Below the pieces are notes generated by a model that did not search any database, was not told the DNA's origin, and saw only the letters and a list, made by a program, of their open reading frames with translations. Of a DNA stretch of 7,256 bases, positions 1,195 to 7,256 are shown one piece after another. The position numbers were made by a program, and so were the translations under genes. Each line of letters opens with the position of its first letter. Position 1 is the stretch's first letter. Origin of the DNA: Candidatus Poribacteria bacterium (GTDB lineage: Bacteria > Poribacteria > DTPJ01 > WJIO01); assembly GCA_014730235.1 (NCBI GenBank), contig WJIO01000276.1, positions 1 to 7,256 of the forward strand, written 5' to 3'.

Positions 1195-1230
1195 TATTGT
1201 AGTGACACAGTATACTGTGTCACTACAATA
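1195..1230. terminator. Perfect 36-bp palindrome between convergent genes; probable bidirectional terminator
   Basis: The 18-bp arm TATTGTAGTGACACAGTA is followed directly by its exact reverse complement, with the centre between 1212 and 1213. It starts 14 nt after the porin-like gene's stop and ends 5 nt before the paaK stop, as expected for a shared terminator. Read on the minus strand, the hairpin is followed by T-rich sequence (1194 down to about 1178), which fits an intrinsic terminator for the operon. On the plus strand no T-run follows, so termination there is less certain. It could also be a dispersed palindromic repeat or a dimeric operator. Confidence 0.7.
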
Positions 1231-1235
1231 TGACA

Positions 1236-2501
1236 TTACTCTGAATCATTTAATCTTTGTATAGAATTGGGTTCTACAAGCTTAACCCGGACAAAGAAAC
1301 CCAAAGCTTCTTCCAGCCTTTTTTGAATTTCCTCATGCAGCGCATCCATTCTCCTGATCTCGTCGAAGAATATATTTTCTGAAACTTCCACCCTCACTTC
1401 CAGTTCATCCTTCGCGCCGCTTCTGTCAACTCTCAGCCGGAAATGCGGTTCTGTCCCCTCTATTTCAGTAAGAATCTGACCGATTAAAGCTGGCTGAATT
1501 TTTACTCCCTGCACGATCACCAGATCGTCTGTGCGCTTTGCTACCCTTGACATCCTGGCCAGAGTGCGGCCACAGATACATTTTGACCGATCCAGACTGG
1601 TTAAATCGCCAGTTCTGTAGCGTATAACGGGAAAAGCTTCCTTAGTTATGGTAGTTAGTACTAATTCTCCAACTTCACCGTCTGGTAAAAGTTCCTCTGT
1701 ATCTGGATTTATAACCTCGGCAATAAAATGATCTTCGGCAATATGAAGGCCGTTTTTCTCCTGACATTCACAGGAAACACCAGGGCCTATTATTTCGCTT
1801 AAACCGTAGTTGTCCAGAGCCAGAATATGCAGTCCTTCCTCTATTTCCAACCTTACAGGCTCAGACCAGGGTTCTGAGCCGATTAACGCTACACGCAGGG
1901 ACAATTCAGCCGGACTTATATCGCTCTTTTTTACAATGTCAGCAAGCTGCAAAGCGAAGGTAGGAGTGCAGACCAGCGCGGTAGTTCTGTAGTTGCGCAT
2001 TATGTTTATCTGCTTTTCTGCGCTGATCCTCGAGGATGGTATAACCGTTGCACCTATATATTCTGCACCGTAATGAAAGCCGATTGCACCAGTAAACAGA
2101 CCATAATCAAAAGATATCTGAACCACATCATCTTTATTCACGCCACCGCTGTTAAGGACGCGTGCAACCAGTTCCGTCCAGTGTTCAATATCGTTCCTGC
2201 TGTAGCCTACGACTATAGGTTCCCGGGTTGTTCCAGAAGAGGATTGCAGCCTTACCACATCCCGCAGGGGCAGAGCAAACATATCATAAGGTTGATTTTC
2301 TATAAGGGATTCTTTAGTGGTGAAGGGGATTTTTTTAAGATCGTCCAGGGATGTTATATCCTCCGGAGCTATGTTTGCTTTATCCAGAAGACTTCGGTAA
2401 AATTTTACGTTCCTGTATACTCTATTGATTGTGACCTGTAAGCGTTCTAGCTGAAGCTGTTCCAATTCACTGCGTTTAATGGTTTCGTATTTTATATCCA
2501 T
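1236..2501 (-). CDS. paaK: Phenylacetate-CoA ligase family, AMP-forming
   Basis: A 421-residue cytoplasmic adenylate-forming enzyme of the PaaK branch of the ANL superfamily. The family activates phenylacetate or related aryl-acids with ATP and CoA, giving the acyl-CoA, AMP and pyrophosphate. Visible motifs are the phosphate loop SSSGTTREP (87-95; the family usually has G where R93 stands), the YGLSE aromatic/adenine motif (232-236), YRTGD (295-299) and the hinge region RTDDLVIVQGV (323-333), followed by a small C-terminal domain. Two C-x-C pairs (244/246 and 308/310) resemble those in anaerobic homologues and may bind zinc. The C-terminus is odd: it ends KLVEPNSIQRLNDSE, whereas PaaK proteins usually continue with a GKAKRV-type segment carrying the A10 lysine. 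The ATG is supported by GGTGGTG 5 nt upstream. The gene starts 14 nt after livF and is the last gene of the set, so its substrate is likely imported by this transporter. The exact aryl acid is not readable from sequence. Confidence 0.9.
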   Translation of the reverse strand: MDIKYETIKRSELEQLQLERLQVTINRVYRNVKFYRSLLDKANIAPEDITSLDDLKKIPFTTKESLIENQPYDMFALPLRDVVRLQSSSGTTREPIVVGYSRNDIEHWTELVARVLNSGGVNKDDVVQISFDYGLFTGAIGFHYGAEYIGATVIPSSRISAEKQINIMRNYRTTALVCTPTFALQLADIVKKSDISPAELSLRVALIGSEPWSEPVRLEIEEGLHILALDNYGLSEIIGPGVSCECQEKNGLHIAEDHFIAEVINPDTEELLPDGEVGELVLTTITKEAFPVIRYRTGDLTSLDRSKCICGRTLARMSRVAKRTDDLVIVQGVKIQPALIGQILTEIEGTEPHFRLRVDRSGAKDELEVRVEVSENIFFDEIRRMDALHEEIQKRLEEALGFFVRVKLVEPNSIQRLNDSE

Positions 2502-2515
2502 TTTTACACCACCGT

Positions 2516-3250
2516 TTATTCCCAGACTTCTTTATAACCTCTACCCAGATATGCCCTCTTAATTTCTTTGTTCTCCAGAAGCTCCTCAGAGCTTCCCTGA
2601 AGCACGATCCTACCTGTCTCCAGGATATATCCCCGATCTGCAACTTTAAGGGCTACATGGGCGTTTTGTTCCACCAGTAATATAGTTGTTTTTTGCTGTT
2701 CCCGAAGATCTGTTATAATCTTGAATATTTCACTAACTATCTTAGGAGCTAAACCCATAGAAGGCTCATCCAGAAGCAAAAGTTTTGGTCTGGACATTAA
2801 AGCCCTTCCAATGGCCAGCATCTGCTGTTCTCCTCCACTTAATGTGCCTGCTTGTTGTTCCTGGCGTTCTTTTAATATAGGGAAAATGTGGAAAATCTGT
2901 TCAAGGTGATTATACACCTCTTTCTTCCTTTTGCGATAATGCTGATAAGCTCCCATTATCAGGTTTTCCTTTACGCTGAGTTCAGAGAACAACTGTCGGC
3001 CTTCAGGAACTTGGGATATTCCCAGCTTGACGATTTTTTCGGGAGATGTGTTTGTAATATCCTTTTCACCAAAATTTACAGTGCCGCTGCGGGAATTTAC
3101 AAGACCGCAGATGGTGTTAAGCAGAGAGGTTTTTCCTGCACCATTAGCTCCCAGAAGCGTGACGATCTCTCCATCGTCTACATGCAAAGAAACACCCCGC
3201 AGGGCCTGTATGTTTCCATAAAATGTGCTTAGACTTTGTATCCTGATCAT
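2516..3250 (-). CDS. livF: Liv-type ABC transporter ATP-binding protein LivF
   Basis: A 244-residue ATPase that pairs with LivG at the cytoplasmic face of the LivH-LivM channel. Visible are the Walker A motif GANGAGKT (34-41), the Q-loop region VPEGRQLF (81-88, characteristic of LivF), the signature LSGGEQ (137-142), Walker B LLLLDEP (157-163), and VEQNA (193-197), where LivF proteins normally carry Gln in place of the switch His. The C-terminus AYLGRGYKEVWE is normal for the family. I place the start at the ATG 3248-3250, which shares its A with the livG stop in a TGATG overlap typical of translational coupling. An in-frame TTG one codon upstream (3251-3253) is possible but less likely. All catalytic motifs are intact. 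paaK follows after 14 nt. Confidence 0.95.
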   Translation of the reverse strand: MIRIQSLSTFYGNIQALRGVSLHVDDGEIVTLLGANGAGKTSLLNTICGLVNSRSGTVNFGEKDITNTSPEKIVKLGISQVPEGRQLFSELSVKENLIMGAYQHYRKRKKEVYNHLEQIFHIFPILKERQEQQAGTLSGGEQQMLAIGRALMSRPKLLLLDEPSMGLAPKIVSEIFKIITDLREQQKTTILLVEQNAHVALKVADRGYILETGRIVLQGSSEELLENKEIKRAYLGRGYKEVWE

Positions 3251-4023
3251 CAAAAATCCAGTTCTTCCCCCAGATACGCGGTTATAACGTCCTGGTTGTT
3301 TTGTATATCCCTGGGAGTACCTTCGGCTATCTTCTGCCCGTAATTCAGCACTGTAACCACGTCGGATATGTTCATAACCAGACCCATATCATGCTCTATA
3401 AGCATAACCGTAACGCCGTTATCCCTTACTCTGTATATCAATTCCGCCATGTGTTCCATTTCGGGTATATTCAGGCCGGAAGCCGGTTCATCCAGCATCA
3501 GCAAATCTGGATCACAGACCAAAGCCCGGGCGAATTCTACCATTCTCTGCTCACCAAAGGACAGGCTTGACGCAGGCCAATCGGCTTTTGACTCAAGCCC
3601 GACAAATTCCAGAACGCTCATGGCTTTGTTCCTGCCATCGCGCTCTTCTTTTTTATATAGGGGCAAACGAAGAGCAGCCGTAATAAGTCCGTGTTTTGAC
3701 TTGCAGTGATAACCCACCATAACATTTTCCAGTACTGTCATGTTATTCATAATCTGTAAGCTCTGGAACGTGCGAGTTATGCCCAGTCCAGCCATTTTGT
3801 GGGATGGCAGATGGTCTATACGCTTTTGTTTGTAGATTATATTTCCCGATGTAAGGGGGTAAAATTTGGTTATAAGGTTATAAGTTGTAGTTTTACCAGC
3901 ACCATTGGGCCCAATTATAGCCATGATCTGTCCCGGATGTACCTTAAACGATACGTCATTAACTGCCACCAGACCGCCGAATTCTTTTCTTAAATTATCT
4001 ACTTCAAGGATAGGTGTTGACAA
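3250..4023 (-). CDS. livG: Liv-type ABC transporter ATP-binding protein LivG (TTG start)
   Basis: A 257-residue ATPase and partner of LivF. Motifs are Walker A GPNGAGKTT (38-46), the Q-loop ITRTFQ (82-87), signature LSFGEQ (154-159), Walker B LLMLDEP (174-180), a GLN D-loop segment (183-185) and switch histidine H211 in IEHD. The insertion around 103-135 after the Q-loop is usual in LivG. I choose the TTG at 4021-4023 as start: the protein then begins (M)STPILEVDNL like other LivG proteins, has the usual length, follows the livM stop by 1 nt, and has AGGAG 10 nt upstream. An ATG at 4108-4110 would add 29 residues read out of frame through the livM C-terminus, which do not look like LivG. It overlaps the livF start by 1 nt. 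Confidence 0.95.
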   Translation of the reverse strand: MSTPILEVDNLRKEFGGLVAVNDVSFKVHPGQIMAIIGPNGAGKTTTYNLITKFYPLTSGNIIYKQKRIDHLPSHKMAGLGITRTFQSLQIMNNMTVLENVMVGYHCKSKHGLITAALRLPLYKKEERDGRNKAMSVLEFVGLESKADWPASSLSFGEQRMVEFARALVCDPDLLMLDEPASGLNIPEMEHMAELIYRVRDNGVTVMLIEHDMGLVMNISDVVTVLNYGQKIAEGTPRDIQNNQDVITAYLGEELDF

Positions 4024-4024
4024 A

Positions 4025-5017
4025 TCAACCGTTCTCCTCTGCCTGTGTCCGGGGTGAAAAACGCGACCATAAACGATGGAATAAAGTTGTAAGCCTTCCC
4101 ACCAAGCCATCGGGCATAAATATCATAACCACCATAAGGAGTATACCATAAAACATTATATCATATTCTTCCGCAACTGTAAGCCATTCAGGAAGCCATG
4201 TAAGTAACACAGTGCCTAATACTGCACCCCAGATGTTTCCCTGACCGCCAATCACAACCATTGTAACCAAAGTTATAGAAGTATGCAGTTGAAATATAGA
4301 AGGCGCTATAAATTGTCGGAAGTGGGCATACAGGCAACCGGCTACAGCGGCATATACTGCGCTGAGGACGAAAACCTGAACTTTGTATTTAGCAATATTT
4401 ACACCCATACTGCTGGCTGCCGTTTCACTTCCATGAATAGCCTTAAAAGCCCTACCTACCCGGGAATTGGTGATATTCATGGATATGACAAGTATAGCAA
4501 CAGCTATTATCCATGCCATAAAATACTGTCCCATAACAAAACTGCTGTCAAATTTAATTCCGAATAAACCGAAAGGTTTAATATCTGCTAAGCCATCGGG
4601 ATTATCAGTAAGCCAGTCCATCTTGCTTAATATTACATGAACTACTTCACCAAAGCCCAGTGTAGCCATAGCCAGATAGTGACCTTTGAGCTTTAAAGTA
4701 GGTATACCGATGAAATATGCTATACCGGCAGTAAATATTATAGCTATGATAGCAGAAATCCAGGGAGGAAGTCCCATTTTCACATTAAGCAGTCCTGAGC
4801 AGTATGCACCTATGCCAAAGAAACCGGCATGTCCCAGTGATATTTGTCCGGCATAACCCATAAGCAGGTTAAGCCCTACCACAATCATGGTATACAAGCC
4901 CACCAAGGTCATTACATTGATATGGTAGTTATTTCCAGAAGCGAAAGGATAAATTATCAGGATAATGGCGAGTATAACTGTGGGGATGTGTTTCTTATAA
5001 CTGCTGTCTTTTATCAT
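4025..5017 (-). CDS. livM: Liv-type ABC transporter permease LivM
   Basis: A 330-residue inner-membrane permease that forms the channel with LivH. Hydrophobic helices are visible at roughly 11-27, 33-53, 64-76, 86-105, 164-181, 213-230, 247-257, 261-276 and 286-301. Family hallmarks are GYAGQISLGHAGFFGIGAY (54-72), LKGHYLAMATLGFGE (110-124) and the cytoplasmic coupling-loop stretch SRVGRAFKAIHGSETAASSMG (185-205), which contacts the ATPases. The C-terminal tail is charged and cytoplasmic. The ATG is preceded by GGACAGGA, with the GGA triplet 6 nt and the AGGA 1 nt from the ATG, so the ribosome site is moderate. It is separated from livH by 178 nt containing an inverted-repeat element, unusually wide for neighbouring liv permease genes. 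The length is normal and no motif is broken. Confidence 0.95.
   Translation of the reverse strand: MIKDSSYKKHIPTVILAIILIIYPFASGNNYHINVMTLVGLYTMIVVGLNLLMGYAGQISLGHAGFFGIGAYCSGLLNVKMGLPPWISAIIAIIFTAGIAYFIGIPTLKLKGHYLAMATLGFGEVVHVILSKMDWLTDNPDGLADIKPFGLFGIKFDSSFVMGQYFMAWIIAVAILVISMNITNSRVGRAFKAIHGSETAASSMGVNIAKYKVQVFVLSAVYAAVAGCLYAHFRQFIAPSIFQLHTSITLVTMVVIGGQGNIWGAVLGTVLLTWLPEWLTVAEEYDIMFYGILLMVVMIFMPDGLVGRLTTLFHRLWSRFSPRTQAEENG
4034..4038 (-). promoter_or_regulatory. Ribosome binding site that decides the livG TTG start
   Basis: AGGAG on the minus strand lies inside the last codons of livM, 10 nt before the TTG at 4023. No comparably placed site serves the 29-residue-longer ATG alternative. 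With the 1-nt livM-livG gap this suggests translational coupling. Confidence 0.65.
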
Positions 5018-5062
5018 ATCCTGTCCGTATGAAGTTAATAAAGTTTACTAAATTCTTTTATC

Positions 5063-5140
5063 TGTCATTCTGAGTTTTTTTTACTCAAGCTTTTTCAAAA
5101 AGCTTGAGTAAAAAGGAATAAGAATTTCGCAGAAATGACA
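5063..5140. repeat. MITE-like nested inverted-repeat element in the livH-livM gap
   Basis: The element is bounded by TGTCATTCTG (5063-5072) and its near-inverse CAGAAATGACA (5130-5140), differing by one extra base. Inside is a perfect inverted repeat (5078-5114). The ends resemble TGTCATTCTGAG...AAGAATTTC dispersed repeats that I recall from many bacterial genomes; that link is from memory. There is no ORF inside and no clear target-site duplication. The flanks 5018-5062 and 5141-5195 show nothing else I can support. Confidence 0.6.
5078..5114. repeat. Perfect inverted repeat, 18-bp arms around one base
   Basis: The left arm TTTTTACTCAAGCTTTTT pairs exactly with 5097-5114 around the single base at 5096. 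In RNA from the minus-strand operon it would form a strong hairpin between livH and livM with an A/U-rich tip. The sequence after it on that strand is A-rich, not T-rich, so it is not a classical intrinsic terminator. It may stabilise the livH 3' end or simply be the core of the surrounding repeat. Confidence 0.75.
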
Positions 5141-5195
5141 TGCCTATAAAAGTTTTTCATTTTTACCACATTTAACTCTGAAGAACCAAAAGTCC

Positions 5196-6086
5196 TTATT
5201 TCTGACTGGTTCCAAAAAGACCACTGGGTTTCAAAAACAATATCACCAGCAGTATAATAAATGCAACTGCGTCCTTATATCCAGAATACCCCAGGGGGGC
5301 AAAGCCTATTGCTAGACGCTCGATAATGCCTATGGTAAATCCCCCTACCACTGCACCAACACCGTTACCAAGACCACCCAACACAGCAGCGCAAAATCCC
5401 TTAAGACCCAGCATTGATCCCATATCGTAAGAGGCATGAGCAACCGGGGCTATAGCCATTCCAGCACCTGCTCCCACAGCCGCGCTTAATGCAAAAGAAC
5501 AGAGAACCATTAATCGGACATTTATGCCCATTAATCTGGCAGCGGTTCTGTTTATGGCTGTGGCTCGCATAGCTTTGCCTATTATGGTGTATTTATAAAA
5601 TAACTGGACAGCTACAACAATAACGGCAGTTATTCCCAAAACCCATAACTGCTGAAGGGAAATTTTAGCCCCCAGAAAGGAAACTGGATCACCAGAGGAA
5701 AAAGGTTTTGCATATATAGGATCCTGTCCCCAGATCGGTAGTGCAATACCGCTAAAAAATATAGATGCACCTACTGTTATAATAATAAGGGTTATAACTG
5801 AAGCATTCTTTACAGGGTTTATTGCTGCCCTTTCGAATATTATACCTATAGCCGTTACAATAAGTATTGAAAGGAAAAAAGCCAATGGCATAGGTAAATT
5901 CAAAGTTGTATTCAGGGACACCATAATCATGGCTCCCAGCATAACAAAACCACCCTGAGCGAAGTTTATTACATCTGTAGCGTTGTATATAATCGTAAAG
6001 CCCATGGCCACCAGGGCATATATACCTCCTACAGTAATCCCGTATATAATGTGTTGTATTAACTGCTGAAAAGTTGGAAATTGCAT
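5196..6086 (-). CDS. livH: Liv-type ABC transporter permease LivH
   Basis: A 296-residue inner-membrane permease, partner of LivM. The start MQFPTFQQLIQHIIYGITVGG is typical of LivH and fixes the ATG at 6084-6086. Hallmarks are GGIYALVAMGF (20-30), NFAQGGFVMLGA (41-52), the coupling-loop stretch GKAMRATAINRTAARLMGINV (170-190), GLKGFCAAVLGGLGN (227-241) and the C-terminal LVILFLKPSGLFG (280-292). Hydrophobic helices alternate with short loops throughout and the length is normal. Upstream of the ATG no good Shine-Dalgarno sequence is visible: the preceding bases are GCGTTAAAGTAAC, and the nearest GGAATGG is 14 nt away inside a repeat. Translation may therefore be weak or depend on the upstream gene. 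Confidence 0.95.
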   Translation of the reverse strand: MQFPTFQQLIQHIIYGITVGGIYALVAMGFTIIYNATDVINFAQGGFVMLGAMIMVSLNTTLNLPMPLAFFLSILIVTAIGIIFERAAINPVKNASVITLIIITVGASIFFSGIALPIWGQDPIYAKPFSSGDPVSFLGAKISLQQLWVLGITAVIVVAVQLFYKYTIIGKAMRATAINRTAARLMGINVRLMVLCSFALSAAVGAGAGMAIAPVAHASYDMGSMLGLKGFCAAVLGGLGNGVGAVVGGFTIGIIERLAIGFAPLGYSGYKDAVAFIILLVILFLKPSGLFGTSQK

Positions 6087-6102
6087 GTTACTTTAACGCG
6101 CC

Positions 6103-6127
6103 ATTCCAGCAAAGGCTGGAATCCAGC
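6103..6127. repeat. REP-like palindromic repeat upstream of livH
   Basis: ATTCCAGC (6103-6110) pairs with GCTGGAAT (6115-6122) across a 4-nt AAAG loop. The second arm also begins an overlapping palindrome, GCTGGA-A-TCCAGC (6115-6127), so two alternative hairpins are possible. This CATTCCAGC...GCTGGAATCCAG pattern matches a widespread class of short dispersed palindromes that I know from other bacteria. The element lies 17 nt upstream of the livH ATG. Confidence 0.6.
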
Positions 6128-6149
6128 TTTAGGTTATTTATAGCAAAAA

Positions 6150-6194
6150 GGTGCAAGGCAGAGGATAACCTTTTGTTTACGCCTTCCTTGCACC
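6150..6194 (-). terminator. Hairpin with T-run after the binding-protein gene (terminator or attenuator)
   Basis: On the minus strand GGTGCAAGG (6194 down to 6186) pairs perfectly with CCTTGCACC (6158 down to 6150) across a 27-nt loop, followed at once by TTTTT (6149-6145). It begins 38 nt after the stop codon of the binding-protein gene and precedes livH. A partial terminator here would give more binding protein than membrane and ATPase subunits, as known between livK and livHMGF in other bacteria. The long loop makes the strength uncertain. Confidence 0.6.
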
Positions 6195-6232
6195 CTATTT
6201 AAATCAATATACCGTAAATTTTCAAGACAAAT

Positions 6233-7256
6233 TTACTTGAGCAAAGTCCAATCGCCGTCGACTATTTTTACCATTACCAGACCATCTTTTGTCAAGCCAT
6301 TATGATCTGTAGGTGAGAAATTAAAAATGCCACCAGTACCGACAAAATCTTTGGTATTTTCGATTTCGTCTCTGATTTTGGCTTTATCTTCTCCGGCTTT
6401 CTTCATAGCAGAAGTAACAATCTGAAGTGCATCCCAGGCGTGACCACCGAAGGTATTTGGCTCTTCGTTAAATTTTGCCTTATAGTCAGAGGTGTATTTT
6501 AACAATACAGCTTTCTGTGGATCGCTATCAGGCAATTCATCTGCCACAAGAAGCTTACCCGCCGGGAATATTACGCCGTTGGCAGCTTCACCGGAAAGGT
6601 CAATATAGGCTTTGTTTGCAACGCCATGACTCATGATAAGAGGAATTTCCATGTTCAGATCGGCTTTCATGTTCTTGGTCACAGTTGCACCGCCACCTGA
6701 AACGCTCCAGCATATAACGGCTTCAGCTTCTGTTCCCTGAATTTTGGTCAACTGAGAAAGCACGTCTGTATCTTTTTCGCCGAATTCCTCCTGAGCAACG
6801 ATTTCAACACCAGCAGGAGGCAGGAGCTTTTCCAACTGTTCCTTACCACTTCTGCCAAATCCATCGCTAGTAGTGATTATTGCAACTTTTGTAATTGCTT
6901 TTTCTTTCAGATGTTCTGCAATTACTTCACCTACCAGGACATCTGATTGAGGTGTTTTGAAAACCCATTTGCGTTCTTCAACAGGTTCTACGATCTTGAC
7001 ACTGGCTGCGCATGAAACCAATGGAATCTGGGCATTCTGTACCAGATCAATAATTCCCAGACTTGCACCGCTTGTAGATGGGCCAATAATAACCGAAACT
7101 TTGTCCACGTTAATTAACTTGTCAATCCTTGTACGGGCTGTAGTCGGATCAGTTGCAGTATCATAGACAATAACGTCAATTTTATTACCGTTGACGCCAC
7201 CTGCTGCATTTATCTGCTCCATTACCATATCCACAGTATTTTTTTCAGGTATACCA
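6233..7256 (-). CDS. ABC transporter substrate-binding protein, probable aromatic-acid type (partial, 5' end off window)
   Basis: A periplasmic Leu/Ile/Val-type (Peripla_BP_6) solute receptor for the LivHMGF channel. The frame is open to the window edge: residues GIPEKNT precede the internal GTG at 7232-7234, so that codon is not the start. The signal peptide and first strand, perhaps 40-50 residues, lie beyond 7256. About 340 residues are visible, with the two-lobe pattern MVMEQINAAGGVNG, IIGPSTSGAS, a hinge region near KVAIITTSDGFGRSGKEQL, and the C-terminal FGGHAWDAL and VGTGGIFNFSPTDHNGL. The segments EPVEERKWVFKTPQSD, SHGVAN, LLVADELPDSDP and SPTDHNGL recall, from memory, the RPA1789-like binding proteins for lignin-derived aromatic acids, not classical LivJ/LivK. 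With paaK in the same set this favours an aromatic substrate. It is followed by a hairpin with a T-run, then livH after 146 nt. Confidence 0.92.
   Translation of the reverse strand, partial: GIPEKNTVDMVMEQINAAGGVNGNKIDVIVYDTATDPTTARTRIDKLINVDKVSVIIGPSTSGASLGIIDLVQNAQIPLVSCAASVKIVEPVEERKWVFKTPQSDVLVGEVIAEHLKEKAITKVAIITTSDGFGRSGKEQLEKLLPPAGVEIVAQEEFGEKDTDVLSQLTKIQGTEAEAVICWSVSGGGATVTKNMKADLNMEIPLIMSHGVANKAYIDLSGEAANGVIFPAGKLLVADELPDSDPQKAVLLKYTSDYKAKFNEEPNTFGGHAWDALQIVTSAMKKAGEDKAKIRDEIENTKDFVGTGGIFNFSPTDHNGLTKDGLVMVKIVDGDWTLLK

Follow-up and report, generated by a model that had tools for sequence, protein, structure and literature searches.

A Liv-type operon of a Candidatus Poribacteria bacterium that probably imports an aromatic carboxylic acid

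Liv-type operons are routinely named importers of branched-chain amino acids. What, then, does such an operon import when it ends in a homologue of phenylacetate-CoA ligase (PaaK)? The question is raised by a contig of 7,256 nt (C212, analysed over its whole length and called the window below) from the draft genome of a Candidatus Poribacteria bacterium (5.53 Mb, 91.6% complete). Its minus strand encodes a substrate-binding protein (SBP), two permeases and two ATPases of the LivHMGF type, and a terminal PaaK homologue, here called PaaK' (Table 1). A previous sequence-only reading had proposed that the operon handles an aromatic acid, not branched-chain amino acids. This held: the ranking of the receptor among solved structures, its predicted fold, the loss of the ammonium clamp and an arylacetate/arylpyruvate gene context all point the same way, and the receptor very probably belongs to the aromatic-acid class.

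The receptor sequence was searched against solved structures. In this single-sequence search, 4dqd/3sg0, 7ylt (IadK2) and the p-coumarate receptors of R. palustris came out first, at E-values of 3e-47 to 6e-37; E. coli LivJ reached 6e-11. In terms of E-value, this puts E. coli LivJ more than 25 orders of magnitude behind the aromatic receptors. When twelve SBP orthologs were combined into a profile, aromatic receptors reached 1e-70 to 2e-56, versus 1.5e-23 for LivJ, and the top seven distinct sequences were all aromatic-acid receptors or close homologues. As a reverse control, a LivJ query brought LivJ/LivK to the top, not 4dqd. Identity is about 31% to 4dqd. The earlier reading had called the receptor RPA1789-like on the basis of five short peptides, all of which were found in the open reading frame. 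Its assignment to the aromatic-acid group stands, but the closest characterised receptor is phenylpyruvate-bound 4dqd/3sg0, not RPA1789.

The fold was compared using an AlphaFold model of the SBP (pLDDT 91.8). The best alignment was again with 4dqd (Z 42.9), and the aromatic receptors (42.9-41.4) scored above all amino-acid receptors. The best of the latter, S. pneumoniae LivJ (4gnr), is close behind at Z 39.8; therefore, the modelled fold alone discriminates only mildly between the two kinds of receptor.

The binding pocket was examined by alignment. In LivJ, Tyr202 and Glu226 hold the ammonium group of the ligand. They align to Val185 and His210 in the window SBP, which thus lacks the LivJ/LivK clamp. 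A histidine at the position of Glu226 is common to all aromatic receptors compared (3sg0, 3tx6, 3ukj, 3uk0 and 7ylt). A paralogue encoded on contig C282 of the same genome retains Tyr/Asp at the clamp, and its top matches are Liv receptors. The best matches and the clamp residues could both have fallen with LivJ/LivK; neither did. In IadK2, the residues important for indoleacetate binding are Phe168, Trp172, Arg199, Phe308 and Tyr311 (PMC10374108). The window SBP conserves Phe308 as a pocket phenylalanine, while Trp172 is replaced by Phe and Tyr311 by His, the latter being also found in 3sg0/3tx6.

The 5' end of the SBP frame is cut by the end of the window, and its continuation was sought elsewhere in the genome. 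On the minus strand of contig C310, iorA, iorB, a canonical paaK and a gene for an ACT_8 protein follow one another. At 62 nt past the ACT gene, an ATG opens a stretch of 44 codons for the N-terminus of a lipoprotein-type receptor (MLKKIILLCLALSIVAASITGCAREEKVYKIGAVFAITGPASSL), after which the contig ends. The window SBP starts GIPEKNT, in frame with the end of C310, and orthologs read ..SSLGVPEENT.. across the join. The genome yielded just three receptors from this Pfam family, of which the one on C212 alone lacks an N-terminus. Because the two ends meet flush and in frame, and no other receptor found misses its N-terminus, we place the two contigs side by side and infer the operon order iorA-iorB-paaK-ACT-SBP-livH-livM-livG-livF-PaaK'. 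The Ior proteins passed their curated cut-offs: IorA scored 732.2 bits against TIGR03336 (cut-off 650.9) and IorB 258.4 bits against NF005322 (cut-off 237). Judging from these genes, the ordinary ligase of the operon is probably the second, upstream paaK, outside the window.

Altogether, the reading we favour, with moderate confidence, is that of a Liv-fold ABC importer of an aromatic carboxylic acid coupled to arylacetate metabolism. The most likely ligand would be an arylacetate such as phenylacetate, 4-hydroxyphenylacetate or indole-3-acetate. The receptor would capture the aryl acid and LivHMGF would bring it into this anaerobic bacterium; the canonical upstream PaaK would activate it to aryl-acetyl-CoA; IorAB would convert this by reductive carboxylation to the arylpyruvate; and transamination would yield aromatic amino acids. 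The ACT protein could act as an amino-acid-responsive regulator. The purpose is probably salvage of aromatic amino acids. This direction is favoured because searches of this genome and its sister detected neither a crotonase (PF00378) nor a hydrolase of the benzoyl-CoA route (TIGR03200) (soft absences, the genome being 91.6% complete), because the shikimate enzyme AroA is present, and because there is a precedent in Methanococcus maripaludis, which, as Porat 2004 is cited in PMC4162585, builds aromatic amino acids from aryl acids. For the same lack of TIGR03200 hydrolase and PF00378 crotonase in both genomes, ring degradation by the benzoyl-CoA or aerobic paa pathway was set aside.

The arrangement recurs in other genomes. 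In a genome of the sister order (G001), an exact overlap of 123 bp joins a piece carrying SBP and LivH to a piece carrying LivM, LivG, LivF and PaaK'. In the class of the Desulfobacteraceae genome G061, more than half of the sampled genomes (65/117) contain the receptor at E <=1e-70, mostly in a similar layout. Where these loci extend past livF, a PaaK homologue comes next in 37 of 47; upstream of the receptor, canonical paaK then ACT were found at 21 loci, and ACT at 12 more. Single Desulfobacteria contigs carry paaK-ACT-SBP-livHMGF-PaaK', and another contig (L160) carries IorA-IorB-SBP-LivHMGF-PaaK'-AMP ligase-PaaK-ACT. In Pelotomaculum-type Bacillota, a canonical-type PaaK follows livF. Since the SBP-LivHMGF-PaaK arrangement recurs in the sister order, Bacillota and Desulfobacteria, it is beyond chance.

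Some relatives show other layouts. In a distant Bacillota relative (L243:2122-14330), UbiX, a pair of UbiD genes and a gene of the benzoate-CoA ligase family flank the receptor and Liv genes. In a Desulfobacterales relative (L037:8707-14022), genes for RACo, a pterin/B12 (corrinoid) methyltransferase and URO-D replace PaaK after livF, which suggests a methoxylated or methylated substrate. Even these two exceptions still indicate aromatic acids or methyl transfer. Finally, some Desulfobacteria operons have a tandem receptor pair ahead of livH (L034:8451-11020, L036:9857-12394), which hints at a single importer for two kinds of ligand.

Several observations weigh against the arylacetate reading, besides the softness of the pathway absences. 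Arg199 and Phe168 of IadK2 are replaced by Glu160 and Thr129 in the window SBP; therefore, the residues give the class of the ligand, not its exact identity. The ends of C310 and C212 abut, with essentially no overlap as proof of the join. In G001, iorAB and paaK-ACT lie away from the transporter genes, and among the other Bacillota relatives of the receptor that were sampled, most lack a linked PaaK. Moreover, the title of entry 4dqd describes a complex with 3-phenylpyruvic acid, not an arylacetate. That 4dqd is the closest solved receptor in both sequence and fold, and that IorAB, with arylpyruvate as substrate, was placed in the same operon, would suit an importer of phenylpyruvate or a related 2-oxo acid, which would be transaminated or oxidised by IorAB while the ligases work on the downstream arylacetyl-CoA/arylacetate pair. 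We consider this unlikely, since related genomes place the importer beside PaaK-type genes more often than beside IorAB, and the identity to 4dqd is low, at about 31%.

An importer of benzoate- or cinnamate-type lignin acids, activated for ring degradation by analogy with RPA1789, seems more doubtful again. RPA1789-type receptors of R. palustris (ligands in PMC3223731) are among the nearest solved structures, and in L243 the receptor is accompanied by UbiD/UbiX and a gene of the benzoate-CoA ligase family, but the nearest relative is 4dqd, and the lack of the TIGR03200 hydrolase and of crotonases leaves no visible enzyme for the benzoyl-CoA route or for coumaroyl-CoA hydration. The least probable reading is the ordinary one, in which the operon imports branched-chain amino acids and the PaaK next to livF is unrelated. 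It accounts for the LivH/M/G/F models being the best matches of the permeases and ATPases, and 4gnr is close in fold score; however, the clamp lost here is retained in the Liv paralogue of the same genome, E. coli LivJ is far outranked, and the linkage to arylacetate enzymes is conserved across phyla. On clamp residues, match ranking and gene context, we rejected import of leucine.

The role of the terminal gene was approached through 86 PaaK homologues, sorted by a motif outside the phosphate loop (RTRD or RTKD versus RTGD). All 38 canonical PaaK have the phosphate loop SSGTTG, whereas the second glycine is absent in 47 of the 48 PaaK'. The window protein and its sister-order ortholog both read SSGTTREP, departing from canonical SSGTTGxP. 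The aryl-pocket motif YG[LM]FT is found in 38/38 canonical sequences and in 3/48 PaaK', these three being the window protein and two relatives from the same phylum. The window protein thus combines an intact pocket motif, YGLFT, with an altered ATP phosphate loop. In the tree, 19 canonical-side rows and 23 PaaK' rows split at 100/99, with the window protein on the PaaK' side. In close Desulfobacteria pairs, the ratio of nonsynonymous to synonymous substitution rates (dN/dS) of PaaK' is 0.05-0.20 and the frames are open and full-length, and on these grounds a pseudogene was rejected; the pair formed by the window and G001 is saturated in dS and gives no ratio. Because these genes evolve under constraint, PaaK' is, on sequence evidence, a conserved and diverged sister group of PaaK under purifying selection, not a product of decay. 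In Desulfobacteria, PaaK' probably no longer adenylates; in the lineage of the window it may still be a ligase, either slow or re-specialised. Tentatively, and with more doubt than belief, we suggest that PaaK' is an ex-ligase turned non-catalytic partner of the aryl-acid ABC importer, for example a sensor of aryl acid, aryl-adenylate or aryl-CoA gating or assisting the transporter. It would have been retained in more than one phylum next to a functional PaaK, and the window lineage would be at an early stage of this change.

The earlier reading took the last gene for a PaaK-family ligase and concluded that capture, import and CoA activation are encoded together. The gene is indeed a PaaK homologue, but one outside the canonical ligase clade. 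Likewise, the aromatic receptor does accompany its importer, but the last gene is not established as the activating enzyme, a role that probably falls to the upstream paaK.

Compared with known systems, the receptor resembles aromatic-acid SBPs (4dqd/3sg0, RPA1789 type, and IadK2 of cluster B-III) in fold, best matches, the histidine at LivJ Glu226 and the pocket phenylalanine; it differs from them by its low identity (27-31%) and by the four IadK2 replacements. The importer shares permease and ATPase families and gene order with the high-affinity branched-chain transporter LivJ/LivK-LivHMGF, but its receptor has no ammonium clamp and its operon includes arylacetate genes. The PaaK' of the window is full-length and keeps the YGLSE, YRTGD and RTDD motifs and the aryl pocket of PaaK from B. 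cenocepacia (2y4o) and B. theta (4r1l), unlike which the second glycine and the lysine of its loop are replaced. IorA, IorB and canonical PaaK are clustered as in the methanogen iorAB-paaK interconversion of arylacetate and arylpyruvate, an aryl-acid route to aromatic amino acids; here, the cluster is extended by an ABC importer of its own, an ACT-domain protein and another PaaK-like gene. The kind of system is thus already known. The gene combination and the PaaK' family are apparently new, at least to us, and nothing on the operon or on DVU_1553-type ligases was found in the papers searched. The residues and operon context would connect the IorAB-PaaK pair of anaerobes with the uptake of aryl acids, under a transporter name that indicates otherwise. 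Moreover, current models still name PaaK', with its degenerate ATP loop, phenylacetate-CoA ligase; therefore, automated pathway calls made from this gene may be wrong.

Table 1. Features of the 7,256-nt window (contig C212).
Feature	Position	Strand	Remarks
Perfect 18+18 palindrome	1195..1230	.	between convergent PaaK' and porin-like genes
PaaK', divergent phenylacetate-CoA-ligase homologue	1236..2501	-	phosphate loop SSGTTREP versus SSGTTGKP
Spacer, livF to PaaK' gene	2502..2515	-	14 nt
LivF-type ATPase	2516..3250	-	top NCBIfam model LivF
LivG-type ATPase	3250..4023	-	ABC_tran + BCA_ABC_TP_C
LivM-type permease	4025..5017	-	PF02653, top NCBIfam model LivM
LivH-type permease	5196..6086	-	PF02653, top NCBIfam model LivH
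Hairpin between SBP and livH	6135..6209	-	T run after it on the minus strand
SBP, aromatic-acid type	6233..7255	-	Peripla_BP_6, HAAT fold; first 44 codons placed on contig C310

The family assignments agree with this picture. By Pfam, the importer consists of two BPD_transp_2 permeases and two ABC ATPases, one with a BCA_ABC_TP_C tail, i.e. a HAAT-type set. The coordinates agree with the Liv-type order, followed by a PaaK homologue, that had been described earlier. The prediction that automatic annotation would assign Liv names was also borne out by the top models, and the PaaK name is assigned likewise. None of the receptor, LivH/M/G/F and PaaK-like proteins of the window reached its curated NCBIfam cut-off: the SBP, which is truncated, scored 77 bits against NF011933 (cut-off 477), and PaaK' 470.5 bits against TIGR02155 (cut-off 646.3). 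The canonical PaaK of C310 also stays below the latter (597 bits), so that this cut-off alone is a weak criterion. For livG, the sequence favours a TTG start at 4023 over the listed ATG at 4110, because the latter falls within livM. The livF ATG, as read from the sequence, shares one base with the livG stop.

Convergent with the operon, a plus-strand open reading frame (132-1181) encodes an outer-membrane porin-like protein with a signal peptide; a Pfam search at up to E 1 gave no match. The palindrome between it and PaaK' is likely a terminator shared by both genes, and the hairpin between SBP and livH may reduce permease expression relative to the receptor. The same SBP-livH gap contains a dispersed inverted repeat (6102-6125, CATTCCNGCNNANGCNGGAATCCA), of which the genome has 127 exact matches (73 forward, 54 reverse) versus 0 for the reversed control pattern. 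Finally, a long imperfect palindrome with TGTCATTCTGAG (5054-5138), inside the 178-nt livM-livH gap, is possibly another dispersed element.

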